From Phoenix dactylifera (taxonomy: Eukaryota; Streptophyta; Magnoliopsida; Arecales; Arecaceae), in contig NC_052399.1 in the NCBI RefSeq assembly GCF_009389715.1, positions 23,011,146 to 23,075,145 on the forward strand: DNA of 64,000 bases. The letters run 5' to 3'. Position 1 is the stretch's first letter. The number at the start of each line of letters is the position of its first letter. This document shows positions 7,801 through 58,396 of this stretch, piece by piece. Made by a program: the position numbers and the translations under genes. The notes under the pieces were generated by a model, which made no database searches, had not been told where the DNA came from, and saw only the letters and a program-made list of their open reading frames with translations.

Positions 7801-10800
7801 TCCACTAGTCTCGAATTTAGATAGGTCAGTGGTATTAACGGAGCTACTCATCTTTCGCTTCCTCAATCCTTGATCTGTTGGAATGTCTTTTCTGTCTAAT
7901 AGCAAATTATTGCCCTCAAACACTATTCCCTTAGGGTTCCTTGGAACAAAAACCTTTTCATATGAGTTCTCGGCATATGTGATAGCACCATTAGCAGCAA
8001 CAAAAACCATCCACACTGCATTTGTTTGCCGAATAAGTATGGCAAATGCCCCAAGCTGCACAAAAAGAGGATGTATGTAAGACGACTGTTTGTAGAACAA
8101 AAGCACTTAGAAAACCCTTTTCCAGTTTTGCTATATTTCATATAACAAGAAGATACACAGACCATAGAAATAACTTGTGCAAGAATATGTTTCAAATTGA
8201 ACATGCAAAAACTTCACAGAGGCAGATGCTCACCTAATATGCATTCATCGTAGTTGCCTTGTATCAAAGTCATAGCATTTAGGGTTTTCCTTTGGTAGTT
8301 TAGAAATTGGTGGAGGTGGCACATTAGGATGGACATAGAAATCCAGGGTCAACAAGTCAAAGCTGGAAAAACTTTAACAAGTATCTCTGCTAATAAAACT
8401 GCATATAGGTGCCCTTCTTTTGATAACAGCAGGAATTAAGTGTCTGACCGAAAAAAGAAGTAAGAATGCTACAGATAATTGGCAGGGCCCTATTAATAGA
8501 TCAAAGTGAGATAAAGAAGTGAGATCAACCACGTGCATGAGACACAAGGTGCAAAAGATAATATATGGAGCAATTATATGAAGGTTTGAACATTGAACTA
8601 TTTAATCTGGCCATCTTTGGGGTTTGAACTTTTATTTGCTAATGCAATTACTGGTAAGAAAGTGATCTCAAATAAGTGAATGCTGTAAGATTAATTATCC
8701 GCTGGTATGGCAACAGGGCAGCAAAATTGGATGGATTCAGCCACCAGCTTCCTGTCTTCACTAATTAAAGATGCATCATAGTGGCTATGTGTAGATTCCA
8801 GAGATAAAGTGAGCGAAGCAAAGGGGTTATCTCCCTTTTCACCTGATCATGGTAGGCATAAAAGACATTACATGAAAAATATTTTCACTTGGCACAATCA
8901 CATTGAATGTAACCTCAATATTCATAGAGTGATTATTTGGTTAGAGAAGTTGTTGTGAAAAATAAATATGCCTAAGATTGTATTATTAGGGGAATCCAAG
9001 GGTGGTTATAAACTGGATCAAGGAGGTCTTACTCACAAGGATTAGAATTTGGAGAGGCCAAAGAATCTTTAAGGTGCCATGGAGCTCCAAAGATAACATG
9101 AGATTTAATTATGTATATTTGAGATTTTCATAGCAAAGTTATTGATATCTCTCTTCCTTCTCTTCATACAATTTTGCAATCATCAGATAACAGGAATATG
9201 AAAACAATCAGAGTTCTAATTTGTCACATGAAATCTGTGTTCCTTTCTTGGATCTGGATATGGAAATTCCCTCTCTTTCTCCCTTTGGTATGACTTTTCC
9301 AATTTAAATTACATCAACTGTCCAGCCTAAACATGTATGAAATTCTTCTACAGTTGCTGGTATTTGTGAGAAGTTCAAAATCTACTACTATTTTTTGAAT
9401 CACATAGCTTAAGGATGTCAGTTCCTGATCATTTAGTGGAAATGCCAACTGCTTATTGATTTTTTGACCAAATTTATATAGCCAAACGGTGAACAGGTTC
9501 GTATACAAAGCATGCAAAGCATTGATATTAATATACTCTACACAGCTGATACAGTACACTGGCAAGATACCAGTCCTGGCAAAAATAAAAAGTAATATTT
9601 TTACGAAATCCATGAGAATGTCAGATGAAATGCGTACCATTGCACTGATCCAATACTCCTCCTTCAAACTGGCCATGTACATTGCAAGAACTGCAGTTAG
9701 TGAAGCAACATCTGTATAGTACAGAAATGTGAAGAACCAGTGAACTGGATAGAGTGTTAACACAATTGCATATAACGTTGCCTTCCTTTCGCTCATAGTA
9801 GGTCTCAAGAGGATAAGCAAGTCATAAACAAGAATGCTACAAATAATGGCAAAAACAGCATTGGTAGATCGAAGAATTGTGGTCGAACAGAGTAAAGGGA
9901 AAGATTGGACTGCCTTAGCAAACCACATGCCCGGAAACAAAGAAGCAACATAGGCAAGTGAAAGATAATACCTGCACAACAGCAAAATGTTAAAATAATG
10001 TTTCAAAAAAAAATGATGGTCATTGGCCATAATTGTTGGAGATAAATAAGAAAGCAAAAGCACTGCCAATTTAGAATGCAGGATAATACGGACTACTGAA
10101 GGATATAACTATATTACTATTGATATGATGCTACTAACTGGAACACTGCAACATGCATAGGAGAAAAAGAAACTCAAACACAATCTCACAAAAATGATAT
10201 GTGGATTCTGATATGCCCTTGCAAGCTGTTTTTTGCTCTGTTAAGTTTATGGCAAACACCTTCATTGATGGATGCAATCATGAGGCCATAAACACAATCT
10301 TTGATGAACACCCTGTTGTTCCTATGAGTTACAATTTCACCATCAACCTAAACTGAAGGGGATTTTCATGCATAAATCCCTTAAATTTATTAAAGGGCCC
10401 TCAGTTACCTAATCTTGATCTGTGCTATCACATGAATATTTACTTATATACTTATTGAAGCTTAAATTTTGTCAAACAATGCATCATATCGGAATGTTCT
10501 TTTGTTTCAACGTTAAAAACCTCAGAGTTTGCACTAGAGATCTGTACATTCTTTACTAATGTAATAAAAAGGGGGAAGTTGCTCACCTCCTCCGATTCAC
10601 ATCAAAAAGAATACACTAGAGATCTATATTTTTTACGGATATGCCCATATATAGTTTTAATTACTTAACAACTCTCCATAGTTTTCCACTGGGTTCATGC
10701 ATTCCACTATTAGAACATGGCACAAGCCATCAAAACCGATTTGCTTAACATACTTCTCTTTAGATCATCAAGTTCATCCCATTGTTACCAATGCCAAAAA

Positions 10801-13078: not shown

Positions 13079-13744
13079 AATTTGGGGTAATTAATCACCG
13101 GTACATTTATTGACTAGTCTCTAACGTTTAATCCCTGTTGACTGGTTGTTTACAATCAGTCCAGCCATATTTCAATACTTTATTATGAGACGAAAACGCC
13201 CCCTAAGGATATTTTAGTTTCTATTGCTTTATCTCCAATCCCATCGGAGAAGAGAAAGAAAAAAGGGGGTCGGCCACGGCCCGACCTCTCCCGAATCTCT
13301 TACTGCGGCCGCGCCGCCAGAAATACCCCCGCCCCAGCCCCCTCCCGAGCCTTCTCCCGCGGCCGCGCTGCCGAGAATGCTCCCGCCCCAGCCCCACGGT
13401 GGGGAGACGCCGAAGAAGAGAAAGAAGGGCGGCCGTGGTGTCCTGCGGCCGTTGCCAGCCACAACCCGCCCTCCTCTCGCATCCGCCGCGGCCCGAACCC
13501 TTTCCGGCGCCGACGACCTTGCAGGAGGAGAAGAATTCTCTGCAAATGCTGTGGCCACGGCCACTGCCGATGGCGGCCTGGCCCTCTCCCATGGCTCCCT
13601 CTTACGTCCGCCACGGCTCGAGCCCCTTCCGACGCCGGCGATATTGCATGGGGGAGAAGAAAGAAGAAAAAAAAAGAAGGAAAGAAGAGAAGAAAAAAAA
13701 AAAGAAAAAGAAAGAAAAAAAAGAAAAAGAAAGAAAAAAAAGAA

Positions 13745-13852
13745 AAAGAAGAAAAAAAATACATACATACATATATACATACATATATATATATATATAC
13801 ACACACATATATATACATATACATATATACATATACATATACATATATACAT

Positions 13853-13922
<70 letters not shown>
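13745..13922. repeat. TA/TACA microsatellite
   Basis: A run of TACA and TATA steps grades into an uninterrupted (AT)n tract from about 13,857 to 13,922. It sits between two A/G-rich tracts inside the fold-back element. Such tracts are highly mutable and prone to assembly error. Confidence 0.9.
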
Positions 13923-13925
<3 letters not shown>

Positions 13926-14595
13926 TGAATGAAAAGAAGAAAAAAAGAAAAGAAAAAACGAAAGAAAAAAAAGAAGAAAAAGGAAAGAAAAAGAAGAAAA
14001 AGGAAAGGAAAGGGAAGAAAAGGAAAGAAAAAGAAGAAAAAGAAGGGAGGGAAAGAAAAAGAAGAAAAGAAAAGAAAGAAAAAAAAAAGAGTGTGTAGTA
14101 GTTAGGTTAGTAAACTTGGTATATAGGTAATATAGTATGGCACACATTTAAATAAGTGTGGCACACAATTAATCAATATTTTAATTTTTTTTTTCTTTTC
14201 TTCTTTTTCTTTATTTTTTTTCTTTTTCTTTTCTTCTCTTCTCTTTCTTTCCTTTTTTTTCTTTTCATTTCTTTCTTTTTTTTTTCTTTCCTTTTTCTTC
14301 TTCTTTTTTTTCAATTCTTTCCTTTTTCTTCTTTTCCTTTCCTTTTTTTTCTTTTTCTTTCCTTCTCTTCTTTTTCTTTCTTTTTCTTTTTCTTTCCTTT
14401 TTCTTCTTTTTTTCTTTTCCTTTTCTTCCTTCGCTTCTTTTTCTTTCTTTTTCTTTTTCTTTCCTTTTTCTTCTTCTTTTTTTTTTCTTTTTCCTTTTCT
14501 TCTTTTTCTTTCCTTTTCTTCTCTGCACACACTTAAATCTTCTTTTTCCTTCTTTTCTTCTATTTTTTTCTTTTTTTCTTTTTTTTTATTTTCTT
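13923..14595. repeat. Purine-rich tract facing a pyrimidine-rich tract
   Basis: Positions 13,930-14,090 are almost purely A and G (GAAAA/GAAGA steps). After a short normal spacer (14,092-14,180), positions 14,180-14,595 are almost purely C and T. The two are complementary in composition and mark the middle of the fold-back element. Reading frames through them are low-complexity Lys/Glu/Arg or Phe/Ser/Leu strings and are not genes. Confidence 0.85.
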
Positions 14596-14739
14596 CTCTC
14601 GTGAGGCCGACGGCGCCAAAAGAGGGCCATGCCATGGTGGCAGCGGAAGGGGGCCCGATCATGGCCACTTTATTTATTTATTTATTATTTTATTACAATA
14701 TATTATATATTTATTTATTTCTTTATTTGTTCGTTCATT

Positions 14740-14816
<77 letters not shown>
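14740..14816. repeat. CA and AT compound microsatellite
   Basis: An (AC)n run of about ten units is followed by an (AT)n run of more than 25 units. A shorter AT run occurs near 15,070-15,090 in the matching position of the next GC unit, so the microsatellite is part of the repeated cassette. Confidence 0.9.
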
Positions 14817-14820
<4 letters not shown>

Positions 14821-15665
14821 GGATATATTTATTTATTTATTTATTTTTCTTTCTTTTTTTCTTTTTTTTTCTTTTTTTCTTTTTATTTCCTTTTCTTTTT
14901 TCTTTTTCTTCTTTTTTTTCTTCTATTTTCTCCTCCCGTGAGGCCGGTGGCGCCAGAAGGGGACCAAGCCGTGGCGGCCGCACGAGGGGGTCCAGCCGCG
15001 GCAGCTTTATTTATTTATAATTATTTTATTTTATTAAAATATATTATATATTTATTTATTCGTTCATTCATATATATATATATATATATTGATGCATTTA
15101 TTTATTTATTTATTTTTCTTTTCTTTCTTTTCTTTTTTTTCTCCTTTTCTTTTTTTCTTCTCTTCTTCCCTTCTTCTTCTTTCTTCTCCTCCCGCGAGCC
15201 GGCAGCGCCGGAAGGGAGTCGGGTCGCGGCGGCCGCAGGAGGGCGCTGCGGGAGGGGGCAGGGCCGCCGCCAGCGGCCGCCGCGGCTGCAGCGGAGAACA
15301 TCTCCCCTCTCGCGAGGCCGACGGCTCTGGAAAGAGGCCGGGCCGTGGCGGACGCAGGAGGAAGGCAGGCTGCGGCCAGCGACGGTCGCAGGAGAGGGCT
15401 CTTGGGGGGGCAGGGGCGGAGGCAATCCTGGCGGCGCGGCCGCGAGAGAGAGCTTGAAAGGGGGCGGGGCCGTAGGAGGGAGTTCGAGAGGAGGCGAGCT
15501 GGGGCCGTCGGCGGCTGCAGGAGGGAGCTCGGGCAAGAGCTCAAGGACCGAGAATTAAACTTGATAAAGATATTGGACGGAAGATTTTAAGACTGGTCAA
15601 CCGGGACTTTTTGTTATGGCGCGGTCTTTTGGAAGATGGGGAATTAATTACCCCAAAAAATTTGA

Positions 15666-15939
15666 AGGGATGGTCATGCAAATTTAATTTTTTTAAAAAA
15701 TATTCATAAAAAAAACCAAAAAAAAAAAAAAAAGCTCACTCCCTTCACCTTCACGGTGGGACCATCGAGAGAGCTCATAAAAGGACGGTAAAATTAAAAG
15801 CCGAACCCCACCGTGAGCTGTTCGCAATCGAGCAAAAAACAGGAGCCGAGCCCCACCTGCCTCCCTTCCCCCTGCTCTCTTTCTCAATCTCCACCCACAG
15901 AACGAGAGAGAGGGGGGGAAGATATCACCTTTGGCTTCC
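15666..15939 (+). promoter_or_regulatory. Promoter and 5' leader of the DUF3511 gene
   Basis: This is the short interval between the fold-back element and the start codon. A TATA-like CATAAAAGG sits near 15,775, about 165 bp before the ATG. It is followed by a CT-rich leader with AGAGAGAG just upstream of the start. The transposon edge lies so close that it probably supplies part of the upstream promoter. Confidence 0.45.
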
Positions 15940-16302
15940 ATGGAGGAATTCAGATCGAGGTCGTGCGGGGACGGGAGGATGGAGCTGGAGGTCTACGGGA
16001 GCCGGGCGGTCCCTCCGGCCTCGGGCCTCCACGAGCTGCGGTGCTACAGCGCCTCTTATGCGTCGTCGCAGCAGAACAGCTACGAGGTCCCCAAGGAGAT
16101 CAAGTTCAAGAAGGGGAAGAGCACCGTGGGTTCGTCTTCCTCCAAGAGTGGGTGGAGCCTCAGTGACCCGGAACTGCAGAGAAAGAAGAGGGTGGTAGGC
16201 TACAAGGCCTACGCTGTGGAGGGGAAGATGAAGGGGTCTCTGAGGAAGAGCTTCAGGTGGCTCAAGGAGAGATACACCCAGGCGGTCTACGGCTGGTCGT
16301 GA
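15940..16302 (+). CDS. DUF3511 domain protein (120 aa)
   Basis: A single-exon plant protein with the DUF3511 signature in its C-terminal half: SGWSLSDPELQRKKRV, then GYKAYAVEGKMKGS, LRKSFRWLKERY and YGWS at the very end. Family members are about 100-140 residues, so the length is normal. The first in-frame ATG (15,940) opens MEEFRSRS and is taken as the start. The N-terminal half is rich in Ser, Tyr and Gly. The C-terminal half is strongly basic and probably helical. There is no signal peptide or membrane segment. The family is found only in plants, and its biochemical role is not established. Whether a UTR intron lies downstream cannot be judged. The reading frame is intact with no oddities. 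Confidence 0.88.
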   Translation: MEEFRSRSCGDGRMELEVYGSRAVPPASGLHELRCYSASYASSQQNSYEVPKEIKFKKGKSTVGSSSSKSGWSLSDPELQRKKRVVGYKAYAVEGKMKGSLRKSFRWLKERYTQAVYGWS

Positions 16303-20870: not shown

Positions 20871-22988
20871 AGACATAGGAGACCGTGAAGTCTAAAATTC
20901 TACTGAAACTTGCTGATCCTAAATAACAAGTTCTACATTTTCTGAAATAGTCTACACAAAGCAACTATATAGATCAAACAAAGATTACCGCAAAAAAAAA
21001 AAGAGGGACAAGAAAGAAAGAAAAGAAAAGAAATAAACTCAGAAAACATTCCAAAGATCCATAAGAAGAAAAATAAGGAGTCATTGAATGACCTACTGAC
21101 TTTGGTAGGTCCAGCTGTACTTGCATGCAAGTCAACAATGAGCCAATAGTATCAACTTTTATTAGACCAACGTGGAATACATTATCATACAACATGCATA
21201 CACCATATATATGCATAAATGTATGTGCACAGACACACATATATGATATATCAATGATTTCCGCTCTGGCATAAGGATTTACAAGAAATGGGTTGTGGTA
21301 TTTTACAAGTCCTCTAACTTCTAATTTCTCTTAGCATTAAATTCAATTAGAAGCATATAAATTATCAGGGAACCAGTCATAAACCTTCAACATTTACGTT
21401 AGTACTTAGCAGATTGTAATATTTACTTCGTTCTTTAAAAGTTCTAAGCAAGAGGTTTTTCTAGTATAAGGTTGATAAAACTTCATATGTTTAGATTCCT
21501 AGTTGCTCAAGGACAAAAAATTAAAAAGAGAACCGCTCAAATCTAGAAATTTGAAGTCTTTCAGGAAAATAATACAAGTGGCTTAAGAGTCTAGTCTACA
21601 ATCAGTTTTTCCACCATTTTTCTTTTATGTTGAATGGTAAAATTTCCACTAAAAAAATCAGCAATCATATTCAAGGAGAAAAAAGAAGTATGGTTCTAGA
21701 GCTCTCCTTATCGGGAGATAAAAGGTGAAAGACTGTCATAAAGAAGAAAAAAGATGATTATGAAAATAAAAATAATAGACTCAAATAAGCCAGCATAATT
21801 ATGGTACAGTTGCAATAACAAAACCAATTTGCCATGATTAAGTAATAACATCCAACTGTCTATATAAACCCTAGATTGCAGGGCTGTAATTTCAATCCCC
21901 ATCCACAATTATTCAAAGAATACTACTGCAACAATTGTTTATTGTGCACAAACCATTATCTATGGGAAACGGAGATCATATGTAAAACCATAAATTTCAC
22001 ACAAATGAATGTACATGAAGGTGGTGAATGGTAGCATCCTATACCCCAATAAATAAAGCAAATAATCAATCTCGACCACCTCCTACCCACACGCATACAT
22101 GATTATCATCAAACATATCTATCAAATTTTCAGGTAAATGATCATATTTCTTTCATGCAAATGATTATAATTTCAAGTAGAACAGCCAAATTCAAAATTT
22201 ACTTTCCCTAAATACGCAAGTCACTCTATTGATATCCAGGCTAACACCGACTAAGAAGATTGCAACTCCAAATAAATGCATGTCCTATTCCCTTTTAACC
22301 ATATATATTGTCTACATGATAGAAAGATAGAGCTTGTGTTAATAGTGAATAGAACATTGTGATTTAACAGTATGATTTTCATGTTAACAGTATGAATGGA
22401 CTATGAATCATTAGCTATGATTTTCATTAGATGTTATTAAATAGTGGATGTCAATGCTGCTTAAGAAGATTACAATATAAGGAGAAATGCCCAAATTTAA
22501 TACATGAACATAAAAACATCATGAATGTACAAATGATTTTGACAAAAGGATGCAAATTAATCTCTAAAATATTGGCACAAATATCAAGTCTTAATATCAG
22601 AGAACTCCCAACACTATTTGAGTTTATGCAAATATCATTATAACTTACAAGAAAACTGTCAAATCAGATAATATTTTCTACAATTCCTTTCTGTATATAC
22701 ATTTGGTTAGGGACATCAGCATATAACAAGACAACTAGTTAAGGAAGACACGGAAAGCAATATCAGTTATTTAGTCCACGTTTTAGAATATGAATGATTT
22801 CTTCTTTTAAAGATTATGTAGGAGATCAGCAGCTTTTAGAACAATCCCAGATTAAAATAAGTGCCTCTGCAGCTAACAGCAATGTTATATAGTATAGTGG
22901 AAAAGTTACATCTTAAGCAACTAATCCATTAGCATACTGACTCTTGATGCTTTCAGTAAGTTTTCATTGATATACGTAATTCAGTCCA
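20871..22988. other. AT-rich non-coding DNA
   Basis: No supported gene. If the minus-strand exon-like block at 24.4-24.8 kb is real, this stretch may be intron of that gene, but no downstream exon could be recognised. Confidence 0.4.
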
Positions 22989-23122
22989 CCATTTATTGTG
23001 CTGTATTTCATTAAGAAATCTTGAACGTTGAACTACTGTCAACTTTTCTAAGCCTCCATTTATTGTGCTGTATTTCATTAAGAAATCTTGAACGTTGAAC
23101 TACTGTCAACTTTTCTAAGCCT
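22989..23122. repeat. Perfect 67-bp tandem duplication
   Basis: Two copies of a 67-bp unit starting CCATTTATTGTGCTG (22989-23055 and 23056-23122) are identical by eye. The identity suggests a recent event, or possibly an assembly artefact. It does not overlap a coding feature. Confidence 0.92.
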
Positions 23123-23759
23123 CACCGTTCTTTTAATGAATATAGTTTCCCCCGTTTGTAAAGTTTTCATATAGAAAATATGATGCCCGTGGCCTATCAG
23201 CATTTTAATTTCTATAAATAAAGCAAGAAAAAGCCCATTTGATTCCATCCATTATGGATTGTGCTTTATAAATTGCACGGGCATAAAGTAAGGAACAGTC
23301 TCTCCAACAAATAAATAGTTGGTTCATGTCTTAATGATCTAAGAAATTATTCTTGCTGATTTCTTTATGATCAATAAGTAAACTTATTGCATAGATTTCA
23401 TAGTGACCACTAAGTAACAATTTACTGCAGAATTCTAAGGATGTCAATTAAATAATATTATATATATGAACTATCAAATTTACTGAAAAATAAAGTTTCA
23501 TAAGAAATTAGACATATTGAGCAATGACTTTGCAGACATAATAATCAGTACTGAAACTAGGATATTGAATGGACATGCAAGGTCACCCAAGAAAAAAATA
23601 TTATAGAAATCCTAAGTTACATTAAATGAGCAGAAATAATTTTATAATACTTTAAATCAAAGATATAGCTTGAAGCTGATCTAAGAAACTGTAGATAACT
23701 TTCCATCCTCCAGCACTCCAAAATTACTAATATGCAAAGGTTTTTGAATGGAGCTTATG
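23123..23759. other. AT-rich non-coding DNA
   Basis: No reading frame, repeat or regulatory motif stands out. Confidence 0.45.
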
Positions 23760-29336: not shown

Positions 29337-29945
29337 TGTGATGCAGGACAACTGCAGGAAGGAGAGGGAAGGGGGAAGAAGAGGAGGAAAAGAAAAGAGG
29401 GAAGAAGAAGACAAGGAGGCTAATTTTCATTCATCATTCATCAAAATCCTAAACATGAGGATGGACCCATATATATAGGGTCACAAAATAACAAATAAAC
29501 CCCTATAAATAAAATAATTTCAAAAAGGCCCTAAAATGACAATACGCAAATAAACCCAAATGACAATATGCAAACAAACCCAATCAACATAAAATAAATC
29601 CAACTAAAATAAATCAATCTAAAATAAAATCAGGCTGGCTGAATCGGCTGGGACCCGCTGAGCTGGTTGGATCCTATGGCGACAGGCTGACCTGGCACTG
29701 GTGTCCGCACCAACTCTCCCCGGGTGGAAAGAAGTCGACCTCGATGAAAGCGGCTCGATAAGGCCCCGATAATACTTCAACAAATTTGGATCAATCGGTG
29801 GTCCCTCCTCATACTGGATCCAAGTGTAACCGGACTTTGGTCGTCCACGCCAACGAACCAGAAAATGCTGGATGCCTTCATCACTGTCAAAAACTATTTG
29901 CTCGACTAAAATAGAATCAATATACTCTTTTTGTGCTTGATGGAG
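29337..29945 (-). mobile_element. 3' end of a Ty3/gypsy chromovirus (integrase tail plus LTR part)
   Basis: The minus strand holds the C-terminal end of a gypsy polyprotein followed by AT-rich 3' sequence with a TATATATGG box near 29,470-29,480. It ends ...GCATCACA at 29,337, consistent with an LTR finishing in CA. The upstream polyprotein is missing, so the insertion is truncated near 29,945. It may interrupt an older element, because the sequences on both sides (GGCTGGCAAATAAC near 29,186 and its partner GTTTGCCACC near 30,740) look like an imperfect inverted repeat pair. Confidence 0.65.
29619..29939 (-). pseudogene. Ty3/gypsy polyprotein fragment, chromodomain
   Basis: The open frame translates to 106 residues and a stop. 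It begins QAQKEYIDSILVEQIVFDSD, then GIQHFLVRWRGRP, GYTWIQYEEG, IDPNLLKYYRGL and SSFHPG-like STSFHPGRVGADT. This is the chromodomain module at the C-terminus of chromovirus integrases, which in intact elements steers insertion to heterochromatin. The aromatic and RW positions of the chromodomain fold are kept. The frame is closed by a normal stop but has no upstream integrase, reverse transcriptase or protease, so the element is dead. Confidence 0.75.
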
Positions 29946-30337
29946 GAGAAAAGGAAACGAAGATGGGTTAGGGACTTAGGGTTTTCCCGTGCGGCGTAGG
30001 GCAATGACTGTCCCTATTAGCCGCCCATGGCAATGGCAGATTGGGATCTCTCCATCTTTTGGTTAGTGGCCCTTCTCCCGCTATCTCAATGTCCATTGCT
30101 TCTTCCTCTTATAGGTTTCTTGTTTCCTTAAGGCTTCGGCGATGACGACAAAGTGCTTTAGCACAAGAGAAGAAGTGATTCGTGGATGGCATCCAAATCT
30201 AGTAAGGGCTTCAATCATGATGATGAGGAGGTGGAGGAGTTCGGGAGAAAGGAGGTCTCCACAAATAAATGTTGTCTTTTTCCACTTCGTTGTTTTAATT
30301 ATTTTTTTTTATTCTTTCATTTTTTCCTCTGAACTCA
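29946..30337. other. Unassigned transcript-like DNA
   Basis: Mixed composition, with short ORFs on the + strand (for example from 30,142, opening MTTKCFSTREEVIRGWHP). No family was recognised. Probably part of the degraded element surrounding the gypsy fragment. Confidence 0.3.
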
Positions 30338-36398: not shown

Positions 36399-37753
36399 TT
36401 GGAGATGACACTCAACTATATGCGGAAGACACAGCCTGTTCCATTAAGTGTAGGTTGTTGAGTACTGTAATTGTAATGTAAACTGTCTGTATATCTGTAC
36501 AGTCTATACCAGCACTAACATGGTTCCTGAAAAGAGGCAGAGACAGAAAACATCTATCTTGAAGTAGCAATTATGATATGCTTGACAAAAATCTTGACAA
36601 CTGATAGAGAGGTTGCAATGGATATCAGAAAATCACTTCTAATTAGAATTTCCCATGTTAGAGAAATTTTATTGGAAGTATGTATGAGCAGAAAATAAAG
36701 GAAGCAAGGCAGCAAAAATGACCATCTCTGATTCTACACAAATATTCGTACAATTGTTTGACTGTAAGAAGCCATAGAAAAATAGTTCAAAGTTTTTCTA
36801 TTCTTTTCTTCTTCTTTTTTTTTGAGAAAGACGTCCTCCCACCTATTTGAAAACGGAGGACTTTATTGTTTGAAACAAATGTAGGATATTAAGCAGAACT
36901 TCTTGTATGGTTATGCCAAATCTTCAGCCATGGTTTACAGGCCCTACCTTTATTTATCTTCTGATCATTGTATATTGTTCACCAAAAAGACATTTTGCAA
37001 AGTACAGTAGTGATGGCCAAGAAGATATTTGTTTTATAGGCTTCAATTGCCAGATTATTTTCATTTTAGCCCTACTGCAAAGGGTAGCATATGTAGTATC
37101 CATTTCAGAGGTACCCTTTCTGCACCCAAATCAACACTTACACACCAAATACAGGCCTAGCTATAATCAGTTTGATAGATCCAAATAAACTCAACTACCT
37201 TGTTACAATATTTACTGATTTTTATTTTTTTTTAAAAAAAAAGCAAAATGGACTTGTCCACTATATTCCTAACAATTGGTACATGACCTGTATAAGGAGT
37301 CTTTACAATAGAGTCTGGTTCTTAATTCATAAGGCAGACCATCCAGAATCCAAGTCTTGACATGTTTTATATACATTTTGAAACTAAGGGTAGGAGTTGT
37401 ACATAAAAATTAAGAAATCAATACAGGAACCATCTTTTCCACACCAGACACCGACGGAAGCTACCAGGTATCTTATTGAGAGAACAACTCTGCCAAAATA
37501 GGGCAAAACTATCTTCCTATTTTGATTCATACAGAACATTATGCTTCTCATTAAGATTCGGGACCTTAGACCAGATATTAATTAGGGAAGCCATACTCCA
37601 CCTCTTGGTCTAGGAATCATGCACTAAACCATTTTTTCCAGGTAATACAAAGACAATTAAATCATCAACATCTATGGTCAAATGATACTAAATTCAGCTG
37701 ATTTATAACTTTATTAAATGAGTACCTACATCTTTTACTTACTTCAGATGTAA
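36399..37753. other. 3' flank of the NT-C2 gene and intergenic DNA
   Basis: The 3' UTR should lie in the first few hundred bases. The remainder is AT-rich with chance ORFs. No feature recognised. Confidence 0.45.
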
Positions 37754-37907
37754 ATTATGGACAGCTTGCTAATCTGCAAAGTCAACAATCTGACTTCAAT
37801 AAATGCACCAGACAACTACACCCAATATACATTATGGACAGCTTGCTAATCTGCAAGGCCAACAATCTGACTTCAATAAATGCACCAGACTACCACACCC
37901 AGATTGC
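37754..37907. repeat. 77-bp tandem duplication
   Basis: The unit starting ATTATGGACAGCTTGCTAAT occurs at 37,754 and again at 37,831, with a handful of differences (for example AAAGTC versus AAGGCC). The copies are older than the perfect duplication at 23.0 kb. No coding consequence. Confidence 0.85.
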
Positions 37908-40511: not shown

Positions 40512-41599
40512 CTACAAGAGCACAAGCCGAAGTTCGGAAGGTTTCAGTTGCTTACTAATCCTATAATTGTAAAGATAGTAGTGGAGCTGCCAATCCCCCG
40601 ACCCAAACTTCAGCTCCTTGAGAAAAGTCTCGTTCTCCATCACATCCAAGGCATTGAACGCATCATAGTCCCTCTGCTTCGCCACGATCAATGCATCATT
40701 CAAGAGCTGCGGCCATGATGTTTTCATCGCCACGTTATAGAACGAGTATGCAGCCTGAAGCACCGAGTAATTCTGGTTCGAAATGATCGAAGATGGCAAC
40801 GTATAGAAGCTAAAAATGTCGGTGATCTCATGCGTCTCGGGGCTCTCCACCGGATAGCTATCCACCACGTCCTCCCTCGGAAGAAGCCAATGCTCCACAT
40901 CGTTCTCATCTTCCGGAGTCCCAGGGTGGCCGCGGACTCCGGCAGCTTGTAGAGCCGGATGGTCCGGCTCATGGCCATCCAGTCTCCGAGCCAGGGAGAA
41001 GCCGACGTCGATCAGCTTCTTGGGATTCAGCGGCCGGTGCCAGTACTGGCACGTGGCGACCGGGGTCGGGATGACCACCCCGGCGGTATACGCCGCCTGC
41101 CAGGTGTCCTCCAGATGGACCCGCAGTGTGACCTTGATCAGGACTGGCGCGAGCCGCTTCGAGCGGAGCTTCTTGTGGACGCAGAGGAAATTGACCTCGG
41201 CCATCCGGACGACGGCGTAGCGGACGTGGATCTTGGCAGGGACGGCGGTGATGAAGGCGACGAGCTTCTTGGAGGCCTTGACGCGGACGCCGATGTGCCA
41301 GGCTTTGAAGAAACCGGGGGGCGGAGGGCCCAGCGGAGGAAGGGCTGGGAGGAGTTGAAGCGTAAGAGGTTGTCGTCGTCCTCGACGTAGTTGAGGGCGA
41401 GGAGGTGGTAGACCTCGGCGCAGGCGGCGTCGTCGATGGTGGACCACCCCACGGGCTGGGTCTCCCAGAAGCGATGGCGCTTCGGGAGGGCCACGGATTC
41501 TTGGATTCTGAGACCGAAGGCCTCGACGGAGGAACCCTCGGGGTCGGGAGTCGGATTAGGGTTAAGGGTTTCGTTGTCATTGGAGTAGCTGGGCGCCAT
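40512..41599 (-). pseudogene. NMT1: Glycylpeptide N-tetradecanoyltransferase (NMT) pseudogene
   Basis: NMT transfers myristate from myristoyl-CoA to N-terminal glycines in the cytosol. Minus-strand homology runs from the N-terminal blocks FGLRIQESVALPKRHRFWET and NYVEDDDNLLRFN through WHIGVRVKASKKLVAFI, CVHKKLRSKRLAPVLIK, YTAGVVIPTP and CQYWHRPLNPKKLIDVGF. It continues to DENDVEHWLLP, LKELKFGSGDWQLHYYLYNY and the terminal LVLL, whose carboxylate is catalytic in NMTs. Lesions: (1) about 40 residues missing after ETQPVG; (2) a one-base loss in the C-run at about 41,313-41,318; (3) one residue lost in IKVTLRV; (4) a frame change near 40,980-40,995, with MAMSRTIRLYKLPE in another frame; (5) about 27 residues missing at 40,908, restoring frame. 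The unbroken parts total well below the usual length of about 430. No introns interrupt the copy, so a processed origin is possible, but a TATA box remains upstream. Confidence 0.88.
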
Positions 41600-42418: not shown

Positions 42419-42849
42419 CTCGGGTGGACTTTTAGCTCTGACTTTTCTTTTTCTTTGCGGGCAAGTTCAACATAAACTAGTGATAATCATACGGACGCAA
42501 CCACTGACCCCAGTGACCTGACATCTAGTTCGATATCTGATTTGAATTTAACTTTATTTTATCGATTTCTTAAGAAATGATTAGTCAGCAACTAAATGCA
42601 GGTCCTTTTTTAATTGAAATTTTTTATACAGCCTCATGATGGTAAGTGAAAAATTATTTATAGGTTACATATTAGTTCTTTATTTCCTTCAAGATGGATC
42701 CCTCAGGACAATTTACGTATACAGCTTTTTTAGTTCTTCATTTATCAACCTATTGAGACGACAAGTAATTGATAGTGATGAAAAAAAAGAAGATTTATAT
42801 TACTATTATTTTAATTAAGTAAGTTTCAATATTGATGAGGATCCATCTT

Positions 42850-44121
42850 AAAATAAATTGAGACCTAATATTGGACCTATAAGTAACTTTTACTTGCTAT
42901 GGTAGAGCTTTAGAATAAGATAATTTTTTCTATGACAAATGACATGTCAACAATTCATCTATCCTAGTTGTTCTTCTCTAGAGTCAATGTACAACAATTC
43001 ATCCATCCTAGTTGTTTTTCTCTAAAGCCACTCTACAAGTTCAATTAATATCATGGGATAGACAAAAAATTTCAATGAAAACGATCTATCCTATATTGTT
43101 GCTTCGTTTGTTATACTTCTTAAACCCTTACTGCAGACTGACCATAAAAAAAGATTATATCTCTTGAGCTAGGTTATTTTAAAATATATTTAAATATAAA
43201 ATAAAAAAAATTTAATACAAGAAAAATAGACATGATCTTTATAAATCATAAAATCTACATTCTACACTACTCTTTCATTGTAGCCTAAAGAAAAAAAATA
43301 ATCATAAATTATCTTATTTTTAAAAAAATTATGTAAGAAAAATTATATATTAAAGAAAACAACAGATGATAAAGTTTCAATAGTAAGGTACTGAAACATT
43401 TTAAATATTATTCTAAAGTAGTACAATTATAGAAATAACAAATGGTAAACTGAAGCATTTTTTTTCTTTTATTTTCTTCAATCTTAAAATAAATTGAGAG
43501 CTAATATTGGGCCTATAGGTAACTTTTACTTGCTATGGTTGAGCTTTAGAATAAGATAATTTTTTCTGTGACAAAAGACATGTCAACAATTCATCTATCC
43601 TAGTTGTTCTTCTCTAGAGTCACCGTACAACAATTCATCCATCCTAGTTGTTTTTCTCTAAAATCACTTTACAAGTTCAATTAATGTCATGGCATAGACA
43701 AAAAATTTCATCTATCCTATATTGTTGCTTCATTTGTTATACTTCTTAAACCCTTATTACAGACCGACCATAGAAAAACATTAGATCACTGCTGAAATGT
43801 TAGGTCAATCTCTTGAGTTAGGTTATTTTAAAATATATTTAGATATAAAATATAAAATTTTAATACAAGAAAAATGGACATGATCTTTATAAGTCATAAA
43901 TTGTACATTCTACACTACTCTTTAATTGCAGCATAAAGAAAAAATAATCATAAATGATCTTATTTTAAAAAAAGTAAGAAATATTATATGTTAAAGAAAA
44001 CAACAGTTCATAAAGTTTCAATAGTAAGGTACTGAAACATTTTAAATATTATTCTAAATTAGTACGGTTATGGAAATAACAAATGAAAAAATGAAGTATA
44101 TTTCCTTTTCTTTAATTTTCT
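42850..44121. repeat. 636-bp tandem repeat inside unit 1
   Basis: AAAATAAATTGAGACCTAAT at 42,850 and AAAATAAATTGAGAGCTAAT at 43,486 start two direct copies about 636 bp apart. Both contain TCATCTATCCTAGTTGTTCT and TACTGAAACATTTTAAATAT. Unit 2 has one copy only (from about 47,500). The second copy of unit 1 (GAGAGCTAA) is the closer match to unit 2. Confidence 0.85.
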
Positions 44122-44817
44122 TCAAAAACTTTTCAAAGAAATGCCATAACTTGCATAAAATAGCTGCATATATAATATAATATATTTATTTAATTCAATG
44201 AATTTTGGTGGTTGAATCTCTTGAGTTATATCTGCGGTTCAAGCATTCGGAACCATTTTAGAGGCATTAACCCATTATATCTTTCTTCCAAGATTGTTAA
44301 TCTAAATAAGCCTTGTGTCACCTATGGAGTTATTTAATGTATAAGAGTATAACTTTGATCCTTGTTGCAAGAAGTGCAAATCTCCCGGACTAGCGTAATC
44401 ACCAAAGTGTAACAAACCTAGACAGCTTTCTTTCTCGTTAACGAAAAAATTATTATAACTAGGGACTTCAGGCTTCAGATGCTTCTTTCTCATATTCCAA
44501 GTCTCCCAATTATGTCTGGAACTCAAATATGGCTTCCACTTGCAGAGCGAGCAAAAATCTCAGAAACCATGTTCAGGATTTAGGACTCAACATCTGGAGA
44601 ACTTGTATACAAGTTCCCACGGCTAAAAGATGGATAAAATGGATCGTTAGGAACAGAAAAAAGAAAAGAACAAATTGTAAAAAAATCAATGCAGCTTTCT
44701 TTATTCATATGATTGAATCCATGCTGAATGCAAGGAACCAAGAATCTCTGTCTCTCTATCCCCTTCAATCTCTCTCCGCCGCCGCCACCCCATCGGAAGC
44801 CTTTGGTGCTTGCGATG

Positions 44818-45108
44818 CTAGCGGACATAATCGGGGAAACTCAGGGCTATCATGTGGGAGAGCAAGCGAGGGCAGAAGCACCACATGAGGAGAATAGGGG
44901 GACATGAGAAGAAGATAAGAAACGTCACGGTGATCACCAGCTTCATTAGCAAGGTCCAGAAGTCGTCGGTCGAGAAGACGCAGTCGCACAGGAAGATCGA
45001 CAGACAAAGTATCACGCTCATGGTGATCGTCGTGCCAATGGCCATGATCAGTTCTTCACGTGGTGACAGCCCCGATGGCATCCTCTCTTCTTGTAAGCGT
45101 CTCGGCAT
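44818..45108 (-). CDS. Small two-helix membrane protein, copy 1 (96 aa)
   Basis: Not a family I recognise. The ATG at 45,108 opens MPRRLQEERMPSGLSPREEL. Predicted membrane segments lie at residues 20-41 (TMSVILCLSIFLCDC) and 53-77 (LVITVTFLIFFSC, then PPILLMWCFC). The short loop between holds STDDFW, and the C-terminus ends DYVR. It is Cys-rich for its size. A splice acceptor (TTTTGCAG) precedes the ATG by about 15 bp, implying an upstream leader exon. The GAA/CTT-rich leader and a TATA near 46,300 fit a minus-strand transcript of about 2 kb. A solo LTR (45,159-45,782) lies in the inferred intron. Copy 2 differs at residues 22, 35, 65 and 82 only. Conservation of an open frame in both copies supports a gene, but it could still be a chance ORF in a non-coding RNA. 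Confidence 0.5.
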   Translation of the reverse strand: MPRRLQEERMPSGLSPREELIMAIGTTITMSVILCLSIFLCDCVFSTDDFWTLLMKLVITVTFLIFFSCPPILLMWCFCPRLLSHMIALSFPDYVR

Positions 45109-45158
45109 CTCTTCTCTCACGCTGCAAAACAAGCATCGAGGGCTATGAACAGCATAAT

Positions 45159-45782
45159 TGATGGCGGACCATTGTAGGGAGAAGAGAGAAAGAGGAAGAA
45201 GAAGGGAAGGAGGAGGAAGAAGAGGTTATAGAGATGTAGGAAGAAAAGGTTATAAAGACGCAGGAAGAAGAGAAGAAGAGAACAAGAAGAAGAAAAAGAA
45301 AAGAGACTAGGGTTTTTGTTCAATCATTCAATTCCCTAATTCATTAGTGAGATGACCCTTATATAGGCCTTATAGCATCAATAAATTGGCCAAGTCAAAT
45401 AATTAACAACTAACCAAACTTGGACCCTTACAGCATGAATTGATTGAGCCAATTAATTGATTACATACTAAATTAAACCTTACTATCATTAGACCATTAA
45501 ACCAATTGATCACACCTAAAATTGGACTTTTATAATTAGGTTTTACATTGATCAATTGATCCAATCACTTGACTCACCAACCAAATCGACTCAAACAAAA
45601 GCAACTAATAAAGCAATAAAAGAAACATGACGCAGACTCGAATGGACCCAATTCCAGGCCTGACTCAATCCGGTAGCTCAAAATCATCTTCTAGCCATAA
45701 TGATGTCAATTCCTGGCATGAGCGTAAGCGAGCGGCTCTGATGGCTCGATCGTCTAAACGAATGGCTCTAATGTCTCCATCA
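45159..45782 (-). mobile_element. Solo LTR (624 bp) in unit 1
   Basis: Starts TGATGGCGG and ends CTCCATCA, so both termini obey the TG...CA rule with short inverted ends. A perfect 5-bp target duplication (ATAAT) flanks it at 45154-45158 and 45783-45787. The matching place in unit 2 (49,660-49,664) has a single ATAAT with no insertion, proving the boundaries. The minus-strand reading has a TATATAAGG box near 45,360 followed by a short leader and a CT-rich end, so transcription orientation is minus. There is no internal polyprotein, primer-binding site or second LTR. Confidence 0.88.
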
Positions 45783-45889
45783 ATAATCTTCAAGATATGT
45801 AGGCAAGGACTCAAATAAGGATAAGTAGAAGAAGAAGAACTGCTGGCTAAGGAAAGAAATGCAGAATTTAGTAAACATTAAGGACTCGG

Positions 45890-46130
45890 ACAAGACTCAA
45901 CCACGAAGAAGAAGAACCCATAGTAGAGGATGGTGAAGAAAAAGAAGAAGAAATAGTAAAAGAAGATGAGTATGAGAACAAGAACAAGAAGGAGAAGGTG
46001 TGGAAGAAGAAGAATAACAAGCAGGGAAGGGGAGAAGAATATACTTCCGCTCTCTCGACTCCCATTCGGGTCTCTTCCTCCTCGGTGGGCGTGGATGGGA
46101 CGCAAGAAGCAAATGGGCTTTGATTGACGT
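45890..46130 (-). other. GAA/CTT-rich leader of copy 1
   Basis: A GAA-triplet-rich stretch (45,905-46,020) is followed by CCACGCCCACCGAGGAGG (minus), shared with 49,790-50,010 of unit 2. Frames here are low-complexity Ser/Leu/Phe strings whose reading differs between copies because triplet tracts vary, so it is read as untranslated leader. Confidence 0.5.
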
Positions 46131-46298
46131 TATGGGGAGCTCAGCCACATACGTCTCAATTTACAGAAGAGAGAGGTGATGTACGGACCCAATAGCATGC
46201 AAAGGTTTCTTTCACCGGTGGCTGCTTCGGCAATCATATCCGTCCATCAACGGAAAACGAAGCAAGTCTTAGTTAATTGATTCGAGCACACGGGAATC

Positions 46299-46308
46299 AT
46301 ATTTATAG
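46299..46308 (-). promoter_or_regulatory. TATA box of copy 1
   Basis: GCTATAAATATG on the complement is a good plant TATA, 1.2 kb upstream of the small ORF and just before the shared leader. The matching position in unit 2 (about 50,196-50,205) is GCATATATATG, a weaker form. Confidence 0.45.
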
Positions 46309-48284
46309 CCATCTTTTTTTTCTCTCTCTCACCCTCTCTCCTTTTTCTTCTTCGTCCCTATGCTGAGACGCATATCGCATACATCACGAGCACAAATACA
46401 TCCAATAAAATCAACAAATAACAAGTTTCAAAGTGCTTCGAGCAACTCTTCCTCCTAATCCATAGGGTGCTTTCTGAATGGCTCACTACATATGCAGTCA
46501 CTCAGTCTGCTGCCCCATTGATCTCATAAAATACATGCATAGTCTGAAATATCACTCCTTTCTTACCATCACCTGAATATATGGCCGGCTTTGATGTATG
46601 AGTATTGGTGCGGGAGTACTGTATACAATTTGGGGTTCACTTGCTAGCGGGACTGGGTGCTTATACTCTAAAAAAAATTCTATCCTCATGCAAGTACTAG
46701 TTTTATCTTAAAATTGTTCTTTTTTGATAGCGAAAGAAGGATAATAAATGAATGCTAAGTATTTTATTAGCTAAAGATATGGTGCTTTGTTATAAGGATT
46801 CATGCGGTTCAACACCAATGTTCAACACGACACGAATTTGCATTATACATAACAGAAATGATAAGAACAAATCTATTTCTATAATGTAGTTTGCTATCTA
46901 TAATTTACACAGTTCACTGGCGACCTAGTATAGTAGAAATCAAAGGTGATTCAATAATTTAATGTACCCCTTAAATATCAAAAGTAAAAGAGTGCCTAAC
47001 TTGTCTAATGAATACCAATTGTTCATCACCATGTCTTTTTTTTCTTTGGGTGGACTGGACTCTGATTCTTTTTTATTTCTTTGCGGACAAGATCGACATA
47101 AACTAGTGATAATTATATGGATGCACCAATGACCCCAGTGACCTGACATGTAGGTCGATATCTGATTTGAATTTAACTTTATTTTATCGATTTCTTAAAA
47201 AATAATTAGTCAGCAACTAAATGCAGGTCCTTTTTTAATCGAAATTTTTATACAGCTTTATTATGGTAAGTGAAAAATTATTTATAAGTTACATATTAGT
47301 TCTTTATTTCCTTCAAGATGGATCCCTCAGGACAATTTACGTATGCAGCTTTTTCAGTTCTTCATTTATCAACCTATTGAGACGACAAGTAATTGATAGT
47401 GATGAAAAAAAAAAGATTTATATTACTATTATTTTAATTAAGTTTTAATATTGATGAGGATCCATCTTTAAAAAAAAAATATTTTGGTGCAAAATCTTAA
47501 AATAAATTGAGAGCTAACATTGGACCTATAAGTAACTTTTACTTGCTATGGTTGAGCTTTAGAATAAGATAATTTTTTCTATGACAAAAGACATGTCAAT
47601 AATTCATCTATCCTAGTTGTTCTTCTCTAGAGTCACGGCACAACAATTCATCCATCCTAGTTGTTTTTCTCTAAAGTCACTTTACAAGTTCAATTAATAT
47701 CATGGCATAGACAAAAATTTCATCTATCCTATATTGTTGCTTCATTTGTTATACTTCTTAAACCCTTATTGCAGACCGTCCATAGAAAAAGATTAGATCA
47801 TTGTTGCAAATGTTAGGTCCATCTCTTAAGCTAGGTTATTTTAAAATATATTTAAATATAAAATATAAAATTTTTAATGCAAGAAAAATAGACATGATCC
47901 TTATAAGTCATAAATTGTACATTCTACACTACTCTTTAATTGCAGCATAAAGAAAAAATAATCATAAATTATCTTATTTTAAAAAAATGTAAGAAAAATT
48001 ATATGTTAAAGAAAACAACAGATGATAAAGTTTCAATAGTAAGGTACCGAAACATTTTAAATATTATTCTAAATTAGTATGGTTATAGAAATTACAAATG
48101 AAAAAATGAAGTATATTTCCTTTTCTTTCATTTTCTTCAAAAAAATTTCAAAGAAACGCCATAACTTGCATAAAATAGCTGCATTTATAATATAATATAT
48201 TTATTTAATTCAATGAATTTTGGTGGTTGAATCTCTTGAGTTATATCTATGGTTTAAGCATTCAGAACCATTTTAGAGGCATTA

Positions 48285-48794
48285 TGATGGCGGACCACTA
48301 CAGGGAGAAGAGAGAAAGAGGTAGAAGAAGGGAAGGAGGAGGAAGAAGAGGTTATAAAGACGCAGGAAGAAGAGAAAAGGAGGGGGAAGAAGAGAAGAAG
48401 AAAAAGAAGAAAGAAGGCTAGAGTTTTTATTTAATCATTCCATTTCCTAATTCATGAGCGGGGTGGCACTTATATAGGCCTTGCATCATGAATTGATCAA
48501 GTCAAACAATTAATAACTAAATAAATTTGGACCCTTCAATTAATTGACTAAGTCAATTAATTGATTATATACAAAATTAAACCTTACTAACATTAGACCA
48601 CTAAACCAATTGATCACACATAAAATTGGACCTTTATAATTAGATCTTACATTGATCAATTGATCCAATCAGTTGACTCAACAGCTAACCCAATTAACTT
48701 GACTAAAACAAAAACTAACCAAACTGACTCGACCAATAACAAAAGCAACTAATTGACTCCATCATCTAAATGAGAGGCTCTGATGTCGCCATCA
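48285..48794 (-). mobile_element. Solo LTR (510 bp) in unit 2
   Basis: Same family as the 45.2-kb LTR: starts TGATGGCGGACC and ends GTCGCCATCA, with an 8-bp inverted terminal match (TGATGGCG). It is flanked by a perfect 5-bp duplication, CATTA (48280-48284 and 48795-48799). The corresponding site in unit 1 (44,265-44,269) has CATTA once and no insertion. It is shorter than its relative by internal deletions. It lies downstream of the minus-strand small gene, copy 2. Confidence 0.88.
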
Positions 48795-49323
48795 CATTAA
48801 CTCATTATGTCCTTCTTCTAAGTTTGTTAGTCTAAATAAGCCTTGTGTCACCTATGGAGTTATTTAATGTATAAGAATATAACTTTGATCCTTGTTGCAA
48901 GAAGTGCAAATATCCCGGCCTAGGGTAATCGCCAAAGTGTAACAAACCTAGACAGCTTTCTTTCTCGTTAACGAAAAAAATATTATAACGAGGAACTTAA
49001 GGCTTCAGATGCTTCCTTCTCGCATTCAAATCTCTCAAATATGTCAGGAACTCAAATATGGCTTCCAGCTGCAGAGCGAGCAAAAATCTCAGAAACCATG
49101 GTCAAGATTTAGGACTTGACATCTGGAGAACTTGTATACAAGTTCCCACGGCTAAAAGATGGATAAAGTGGATCGTTAGGAACACAAAAAAGAAAAGAAC
49201 AAATTGTAAAAAAATCAATGCAGCTTTCTTTATTCATACGATTGAATCCATGAATGCAAGAAACCAAGAATCTCTCTCTCTCCGCCGCCACCCCCCCATC
49301 GGAAGCCTTTGGTGTTTGCGATG

Positions 49324-49614
49324 CTAGCGGACATAATCGGGGAAGCTCAGGGCTATCATGTGGGAGAGAAAGCGAGGGCAGAAGCACCACATGAGGAGAA
49401 TAGGGGGACATGAGAAGAAGACAAGAAACGTCACGGTGATCACCAGCTTCATTAGCAAGGTCCAGAAGTCGTCGGTCGAGAAGACGCAGTCGCACAGGAA
49501 GATCGACAGACTAAGTATCACGCTCATGGTGATCGTCGTGCCAATGGCCAAGATCAGTTCTTCACGTGGTGACAGCCCCGATGGCATCCTCTCTTCTTGT
49601 AAGCGTCTCGGCAT
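49324..49614 (-). CDS. Small two-helix membrane protein, copy 2 (96 aa)
   Basis: Same length and layout as copy 1, with residues M22L, C35S, I65V and L82F changed. Five base differences separate the two ORFs over 291 bp: four change the protein and one is silent. The acceptor AG (CTCTGCAG equivalent: TTTGCAG) and ATG context are preserved. Here the interval upstream of the ORF lacks the solo LTR, so the leader-to-ORF distance is about 0.6 kb shorter. The changes stay within hydrophobic classes apart from Cys to Ser. Function unknown. The small excess of replacement changes may mean relaxed constraint, or that the ORF is not translated. Confidence 0.5.
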   Translation of the reverse strand: MPRRLQEERMPSGLSPREELILAIGTTITMSVILSLSIFLCDCVFSTDDFWTLLMKLVITVTFLVFFSCPPILLMWCFCPRFLSHMIALSFPDYVR

Positions 49615-49666
49615 CTCTTCTCTCACTCTGCAAAACAAATATCGAGGGCTATGAACAGCATAATCT

Positions 49667-50098
49667 TCAAGCTACGTAGGCAATTGACTCAAACAAGGCG
49701 AAGAAGAAGAAGAAGAACTGCTGGCTAAGGAACGAAATGCAGAATTCAGTAAGAATTAAGGACTCGGACAAGAACTCAGGAAGAAGAAGAACCCATTGTA
49801 GAAGATGGTGAAGAAAAAGAAGAAGAAATAGTAGAAGATGAGAACAAGCTAGAACAAGAACAAGAAGAAGAAGGTGAAGAAGAAGAAGAAGAAGAAGAAG
49901 AAGAAGAATAACCAGCAGGGAAGGAAAGAAGAACATACTTCCGCTCTCTCTGGACTCCTCTTTGGGTCTCTTCCTTCTCGGTGGGCGTGGATGGGACGCA
50001 AGAAGCAAATGGGCTTTGATTGATGTTATGGGGAGCTCAGCCCCATACGTCCCAATATATAGGAGAGAGAGGTGATGTACGGACCCAATAGCAGGCAA
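49667..50098 (-). other. GAA/CTT-rich leader of copy 2
   Basis: Counterpart of 45,890-46,130. The long (GAA)n tract at about 49,860-49,910 is expanded relative to copy 1. The 143-codon frame here depends on the triplet expansion, is not kept in copy 1, and is therefore treated as non-coding leader. Confidence 0.5.
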
Positions 50099-50874
50099 AA
50101 GTTTCTTTCACCAGTGACTGCTTCGGCAAATCATATCCGTCCGTCAACGGGAAACTAAGCAAGTCTTATTTGATTGATTCGAGCACACGCGAATCATATA
50201 TATGCCGGCTCTCTCTCTCTCTCTCTCCATCCATTTTCTCTTCCTTCTTCCTGCTGAAACGAGTATTTCATACATCAAGAGTTCGAATATACCCAATAGA
50301 ATTGGCAAATAACAGGTCCTAAAGTATTCCGAGCAACTTTCTCTTTACCATTAGCCTCATGGAATACATGCATAGCCTGAAATATCACTTCCTTTTTACC
50401 ATCATCCAAATATATGGCCGGCTTTGATGTATGAGTATTGGTATGAGAGTATTGTATACAATTTGGGCTTCACTTGCTAGCAGGACTAGGTTCTTATACT
50501 CTAAAAAAAATTCTATCCTCATGCAAGTGCTAGTTTTATCTTAAAATTGTTCTGTTTTGATACTGAAAGAAAGATAATAAATGAATGCTAAGTATTTTAT
50601 TAGCTAAAGATATAGTGCTTTGTTATAACGATTCATGTGGTTCAACACCAATGTTCAACACAACACGAATTTGCATTATACATAACAGAAATGATGATAA
50701 CAAATCTATTTCTATAATGTAGTTTGCTATCTATAATTTACACAGTTCACCAACGACCTAGTATTGTAGAAATCAAAGGTGATTCAATATTTTAATGTAC
50801 CCCTTAAATAGCAAAAGTAAGAGAGTGCCTAACTTGTCTAATGAATACCAATTGTTCATTACCATGACTTTTCC

Positions 50875-56659: not shown

Positions 56660-58396
56660 GGAGATTAGCATGAGCAGCCCACGTAAAAAAAACGTTAAGT
56701 TTTAGTATACACGAGTCAGACGTGGTGGGTTAAATACGGGACTGTGATTTAGGGAGGAATTCAAACGAGCGATCTAAACTTTTTTTTTTTTTCCTTTTCT
56801 TTTTGCCGTTGGCAACTAAACTTTTTTTTTTTTTTTTTCCGTTTAAAATAAAAGTAGTCAGATCCTCACCGCTGCACGTGCGAATGTGGCTAAAAGTAGC
56901 ACTATGGTTTCGCCAACCGGGCGCCAGCTGTCACAGCTGGCAGCGGGGCCTGCAATGCCCTGCGCTTTTCCCGTTGCTTTCCCTGGACGAACGAGGGGCA
57001 AGCCCAAGGGAGAAGTGAAAACCCCACCCCACCATATCTCTCTCCCGGCCCCCTCCTCCCTTCTCTCGATTTTTCCTCTTCTTTTCTACGCTCTTTCCTT
57101 CCGCGATCTCGCCCCGCCTCGCTCTTGGTATCTTTCCATCCAGGAAGAAGATTTCATTCCTCGTGCTATTATTGTTGGTTGCTTCCTCTCTGGACGATTG
57201 GATTTTGTCCCCTGGATTTCGCCCTTGAAGTCTCGTAGCGATTTCGACAGGAGAGCTGGGTATCTATCTGGATTTTTGTGGGAAAGAATCTTGGAGTTCC
57301 TGGTAGCAAGTGTTCTCGTGTCTCTTCGAAGGTTCTTGCCTCAACGTTTGGGACTTTTGCTCTTGGTTGGAAAAAAAGACTTCTTTTTCTGGGTTCTTGG
57401 AGCGATTTCGCTCTCATGCCGTCGTGAAACCATCTTTCCTCTCGGGTTTCGATGCTAATGTTGTTCTCTGGCTGAAAGATCGGAATTTTCGCGAGATTTC
57501 GCTGCGGGAGGTTCAGTCCTTGAGGTCTCGCATAAGAGGTTTGGATATCTATCTAGTTGCTCTTTACTTCTGGTAAGAATTTTGGAGTTCATTATTAGCT
57601 GCGATTCCCACTGATAGTAAGTTATCCTTTTCGTCTGCTTTAGGATTCTTGCCCCAAGGGTTTGGGATTTCTGCTCTCGGTTGGGAAGAAGAGTTCTTGT
57701 TCTGGGTTCTTGGAGCGATTTGGATCTTCTCCCTTCGTCAAACCATCTATCATCATGGGTTTCGATGCTACTATTTTTTCCTGGCCGAAATATTGGATTT
57801 TCCACAGAATTTCGTCGCGGGAGTTTAGGTCCTTGAGGTCTCGCTGTGATTTCAAAGGAAAGGATCATAGATTGATCTCGGTTTTGTCGCAAGTATTTGT
57901 AGTTCAGCATTAGCTGCAATTCCGGCTGGTAATAAGTTTTCCTGTGCCTCTGTTTTAAAGTTCCTGCCGCAGTTTTGAGATTTTTACGTTCGTTTGGAGA
58001 GCGATCCTTTTTCTGGGGTCTTTACTACGAGAGAACTGGTTCTTGGCATCCCTCAGCGGTTGCTGTAAAAAAATTGGATTTTTATCTGGATTACGTAATA
58101 AGATTTTTGGGTTTTAATCAATATAAGCTTCTGTTCCGGTTTAAAAAAAAGTTTTCTTGTGCCTCTAAATTCCTTCGGTGAGGTTCCCCAGGGTAGCAAG
58201 TTTTGGATTTTTCACTCTCGCCTGGACTCTGCGGAGAAGAATTCCCCTGGGCTCTACTTCAAGAAATCAATTTCTCTGGTCTTTCCTTGAATTGGACTAA
58301 AGAATTGCTTTCTTGGAGTCTGGGATTGGTTGTTTAGATATTGGAAATCTAGGGATCTTGTTTCGAGTGTCATTAAGTGATTGCCTTTCCTGATAG
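56660..58396 (+). promoter_or_regulatory. ELF3 promoter, 5' UTR and leader intron
   Basis: The region 56,860-57,120 is CT-rich and GC-richer (CTCTCTCCCGGCCCCCTCC), typical of a plant 5' UTR. Immediately before the coding exon, TTTCCTGATAG|GGATTTG is a plausible acceptor at 58,395-58,396, implying a 5' UTR intron of about 1.2 kb. No TATA was fixed with confidence. ORFs in this leader are open by composition only. The internal repeat is listed separately. Confidence 0.5.
57180..58200 (+). repeat. About 310-bp tandem repeat in the ELF3 leader
   Basis: Three or more diverged copies share an ordered set of blocks: TTGGGA.TT..TGCTCTCGGTTGG, TTCTGGGTTCTTGGAGCGATT (57,391 and 57,704; weaker near 58,010), GGGTTTCGATGCTA (57,441 and 57,755), CGGGAGGTTCAGTCCTTGAG / CGGGAGTTTAGGTCCTTGAG and TCTCGC, then GGAGTTC and AGCTGC.ATTCC. 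A partial earlier copy lies at 57,180-57,330. The period is about 305-313 bp. Because it sits in the inferred 5' UTR intron, it could affect splicing or expression of ELF3. Confidence 0.8.

Follow-up and report, generated by a model that had tools for sequence, protein, structure and literature searches.

The window, meaning the whole 64-kb stretch of DNA that was analysed, contains no N and has a G+C content of 37.7%. Pfam matches above cut-off mark several gene pieces, and a tandem duplication follows the last of these. Gene content such as DUF3511 and ALG10, along with the type of repeats, suggests that the DNA is probably that of a flowering plant. The features of this part of the argument are listed below.

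9,314-10,108, minus strand: gene piece, ALG10
16,162-16,293, plus strand: gene piece, DUF3511, placed via residues 116-159 of the ORF at 15,817-16,302
40,512-41,555, minus strand: gene piece, N-myristoyltransferase
42,422-47,039, plus strand: copy A of the tandem duplication, with BLAST blocks against copy B at 83.1-94.7% identity
42,842-43,481, plus strand: A1, an additional ~640-bp unit of copy A, tandem to A2 and absent from copy B
43,478-44,125: A2, the unit tandem to A1 in copy A
47,048-50,872, plus strand: copy B of the tandem duplication, starting 8 bp past copy A

A tRNA scan and an Rfam scan of the window each returned 0 matches. A long low-complexity stretch at 13,200-15,500 is made of TA-rich and GA/CT-rich simple repeats, both direct and inverted. 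Short tandem duplications occur at 22,986-23,123 (71 bp, 98.6%) and at 37,748-37,901 (77 bp, 92.2%). A direct repeat of ~200 bp with 80% identity spans 57,330-57,844 within a long minus-strand ORF, which matched no Pfam family above cut-off.

BLAST within the window arranges copies A and B head to tail, and the 8-bp junction between them lacks evident long homology. Divergence between the copies varies along their length. The K2P distance is 0.050 and 0.052 over 43,480-45,158. The left flank has 0.077, the right end 0.089 and the GA-rich part at 45,788-46,451 has 0.174. The duplication is thus less uniform than the sequence-only reading, made before this analysis, had implied. Apart from A1 and the two insertions described below, gaps of at least 8 bp between the copies number four (34, 20, 19 and 58 bp). 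Copy B carries a 34-bp additional stretch at 47,458. Among the ~640-bp units, A2 and copy B form the closest pair (K2P 0.049), and the distances of A1 are larger, at 0.082 from A2 and 0.075 from B. A2 is grouped with B by 30 sites, A1 with B by 15 and A1 with A2 by 10. Since A1 is further from A2 and B than these are from each other, the doubling of A1 and A2 probably preceded the segmental duplication, and copy B would then have lost one unit. Gene conversion could alternatively be the source of this distance pattern.

Reciprocal filled and empty sites

Each copy of the duplication contains one insertion that the other copy lacks. The insertions, named E1 and E2, and their target sites are as follows.

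45,159-45,782, minus strand (sense taken from the TATA box): E1, 624 bp, in copy A and absent from copy B, with TGATGG...CCATCA ends; best read as a solo LTR
45,365-45,359, minus strand: TATA box of E1
45,154-45,158: left target-site duplication of E1, ATAAT
45,783-45,787: right target-site duplication of E1, ATAAT
49,660-49,664: empty site of E1, a single ATAAT in copy B
48,285-48,794, minus strand: E2, 510 bp, in copy B and absent from copy A, with a TATA box in common with E1; best read as a solo LTR
48,476-48,470, minus strand: TATA box of E2
48,280-48,284: left target-site duplication of E2, CATTA
48,795-48,799: right target-site duplication of E2, CATTA
44,265-44,269: empty site of E2, a single CATTA in copy A

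The sequence-only reading had given the same coordinates and lengths, the same TG...CA ends, the same perfect ATAAT and CATTA duplications and the same single empty sites. The boundaries of the BLAST blocks locate the insertions precisely. Positions 43,480-44,269 of copy A pair with 47,493-48,284 of copy B, 44,265-45,158 with 48,795-49,664, and 45,783-46,451 with 49,660-50,341. The first two blocks overlap on the A side by exactly CATTA, and the last two overlap on the B side by exactly ATAAT. Random stretches of 400-700 bp were drawn inside 42,421-50,872. A perfect 5-bp flanking repeat accompanied 0.214% of 200,000 draws, and 0.001% of the same draws had both such a repeat and TG...CA ends, a figure to which hits on E1 or E2 themselves would contribute. 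The ends alone occurred in 0.359% of a separate 200,000 draws.

E1 and E2 are related to each other, with both ends in common (TGATGG...CCATCA) and different targets. The BLAST blocks, the termini and the alignment of the elements all support the reciprocal filled and empty sites of two solo LTRs that had been proposed. The alignment of copies A and B, suggested earlier as a check, revealed no insertion common to both copies. A single ancestral insertion shared by the copies was rejected, since E1 and E2 occupy different positions and each has its empty site in the opposite copy. Divergence leads to the same conclusion. Over the core of the elements the K2P distance is 0.136 (bootstrap 0.092-0.187), and two duplicated stretches of the copies gave 0.050 (0.035-0.067) and 0.074 (0.048-0.103). 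Differing sites amount to 32/262 in the element core against 38/784 in the duplicated copies (p 9.4e-5). The greater distance between the elements means that they do not represent a single insertion carried along by the duplication. The source elements of E1 and E2 probably parted before the duplication, judging by these distances, although repeat DNA may accumulate changes more quickly than the sequence around it. The distance over the whole element pair depends on the alignment (K2P 0.228 in one, 0.130 in another); restricted to the CT-rich part, it is 0.077.

Relative order of duplication and insertion

We infer both the order of the insertions relative to the duplication and the recombination within each element. 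A segment of plant DNA would first have been duplicated head to tail. Two members of one LTR-retrotransposon family would then have inserted, one into each copy and at different places, each generating a 5-bp target duplication. Recombination between the LTRs of each element would finally have removed the interior and one LTR, leaving a solo LTR between intact 5-bp repeats. We regard this account as a whole as likely. Loss of the interior must, by necessity, be later than insertion. Placing the insertions after the duplication gives the simplest history, but the observations do not force it. Orthologous regions of Oryza have been compared in the same manner. That comparison describes unshared LTR elements that are flanked by 5-bp duplications and matched by a single site in the opposite region, and it reads them as insertions after divergence (PMC3060143). 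It concerns orthologous regions of different genomes, whereas the two regions here are tandem copies within one sequence.

That both insertions post-date the duplication had been presented as a consequence of the pattern. The claim holds as the simplest reading but not as a strict consequence, because heterozygous insertions or a false join of haplotypes would give the same pattern. The former case assumes that E1 and E2 sat on different haplotypes of a single-copy locus, from which unequal exchange later made the tandem copy. Insertions preceding the duplication in this way would leave identical filled and empty sites, yet the scenario requires that both insertions were heterozygous and that the exchange involved exactly those haplotypes. 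The short junction between the copies does not point to homologous unequal exchange at their ends, and we consider this history unlikely. A false duplication appears very unlikely. Had the assembly placed two allelic haplotypes one after the other, with E1 and E2 as allelic insertion differences, adjacent head-to-tail copies with reciprocal insertions would be expected. Against such an error, no N interrupts the window, and the copies differ by K2P 0.05 to 0.17 plus the 640-bp unit, which is more than would be expected between alleles. We retain duplication followed by separate insertions as the simplest history. The earlier description of a dated order of events was too strong in one respect. 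Only a relative order is obtained: a solo LTR lacks the second LTR against which it could be dated, and the locus yields no absolute date.

Identity and possible family of the elements

On the minus strand, the elements share a directional layout in which TGATGG... is followed by an AT-rich part and then a TATATAAG box, and a CT-rich part leads to the end ...GTCCGCCATCA. The TATATAAG box is common to E1 (45,365) and E2 (48,476), and the CT-rich stretch runs from there to the end. E2 is without more than 100 bp present near the 5' end of E1, where the placement of the gaps is uncertain. A 29-base inverted self-match lies inside E2. Both elements contain fewer CpG than expected (12 observed against 22.5 in E1, 5 against 16.0 in E2), a deficit consistent with the decay of methylated repeat DNA. 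A sensitive search of the window for a third copy recovered E1 and E2 only, so that the small LTR family proposed earlier is represented there by two members. No internal region was seen beside or between the elements, and neither a primer-binding site nor a full-length relative was seen in the window. A 12-base tRNA-Met primer motif has only two matches in the window, each with 2 mismatches (50,439 and 61,013), and neither adjoins the elements. A pattern derived from the common LTR end had 0 matches in viral_contigs.

LTR identity of E1 and E2 is strongly indicated by their anatomy. Having the layout of an LTR and no internal region alongside, the elements are best read as solo LTRs. In maize, identical repeats around a solo LTR are described as the mark of intra-element recombination (PMC2686159). 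E1 and E2 resemble plant solo LTRs with target-site duplications in consisting of one LTR, identical 5-bp repeats and no interior, and the maize diagnosis described in that source is alike (PMC2686159). The present case does not differ in kind, apart from a neighbouring tandem copy that provides reciprocal empty sites. It is extremely unlikely that E1 and E2 are instead non-autonomous TIR elements making 5-bp duplications: the missing retrotransposon interior and an imperfect terminal inverted match (TGATGGCG, 8 bp, in E2; 6 bp in E1) would suit such elements, but the inverted repeats of TIR elements and MITEs extend beyond a few bases and the match here stops after 6-8 bp, in the manner of LTRs, the TG...CA ends and the directional layout with a TATA box speak for LTRs, and LTR ends and 5-bp duplications published for CRM elements agree with E1 and E2 (PMC3059260).

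The termini of these putative solo LTRs offer a lead on the family. LTRs of CRM-clade chromoviruses (Ty3/gypsy) are described as 299-1,225 bp long and as having TGATG/CATCA ends that are highly conserved, whereas their 5-bp target duplications vary in sequence (PMC3059260). E1 and E2, read on the minus strand, have TGATG/CATCA termini as in that description (PMC3059260). Their lengths (624 and 510 bp) fall within the published range, and the 5-bp duplication is the same (PMC3059260). They differ from CRM elements in keeping no coding region, primer site or polypurine tract. Such LTR lengths and 5-bp duplications are also reported for other chromovirus clades (PMC3605345); neither feature is therefore clade-specific, and only the termini point to CRM. 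An open frame from the second base extends for 38 codons in E1 and for 14 in the same frame of E2. It would suit the coding frame that enters the start of the 3' LTR in group A CRM elements, but such short lengths are not decisive. CRM-clade membership would be a lead suggested by the termini, and we do not claim it. Elsewhere in the window, a minus-strand ORF at 29,619-29,975 weakly matches a chromodomain (E 0.00097; 19.5 bits, where the Pfam cut-off is 25.1) and is perhaps a chromovirus remnant. Short direct repeats surround this ORF.

A reading frame beside E1 and the significance of the locus

A 96-codon ORF is present in both copies of the duplication and is placed differently relative to the two elements.

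44,821-45,108, minus strand: 96-codon ORF of copy A, stop codon at 44,818-44,820
49,327-49,614, minus strand: 96-codon ORF of copy B, stop codon at 49,324-49,326

E1 ends 50 bp upstream of the copy-A start codon and has the same sense, with its TATA box ~250 bp upstream of that codon. In copy B, E2 is located past the stop codon of the ORF, at a distance of 529 bp. Evidence for the ORF as a gene is mixed and weak. The ORF differs between the copies at 5/291 bases, a lower proportion than in non-coding DNA close by (30/430, p 0.0012, in one comparison and 38/784, p 0.022, in the other). Four of the five changes alter an amino acid. Purifying selection on the protein was considered as proof of a gene and gave no such signal, with dN 0.018 against dS 0.015 (NG86; 0.017 and 0.014 by LWL85). 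The opposite strand is open too in both copies, for 105 codons. An NCBIfam scan of the ORF copies matched 0/2. The only family match of the ORF was to SecE, and this identification was rejected, as the scores of 16.0 and 15.8 bits do not reach the cut-off of 22.7.

Given its position and sense, E1 might be a putative promoter of the copy-A ORF. It is quite unlikely that E1 took over from or supplemented the promoter of a copy-A gene, creating an expression difference between tandem paralogues soon after the duplication. If E1 drives the ORF, the locus would represent promoter divergence between fresh duplicates. Aside from this reading, the locus offers nothing new on LTR elements. The same empty-site logic is already in print for rice, in the comparison of Oryza regions (PMC3060143). 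The observation itself is confirmed as correct, and the case is tidy but ordinary plant genome evolution. Its value is as a compact teaching example, in which each tandem copy is the empty-site control for the other and two insertions are precisely shown from one sequence.
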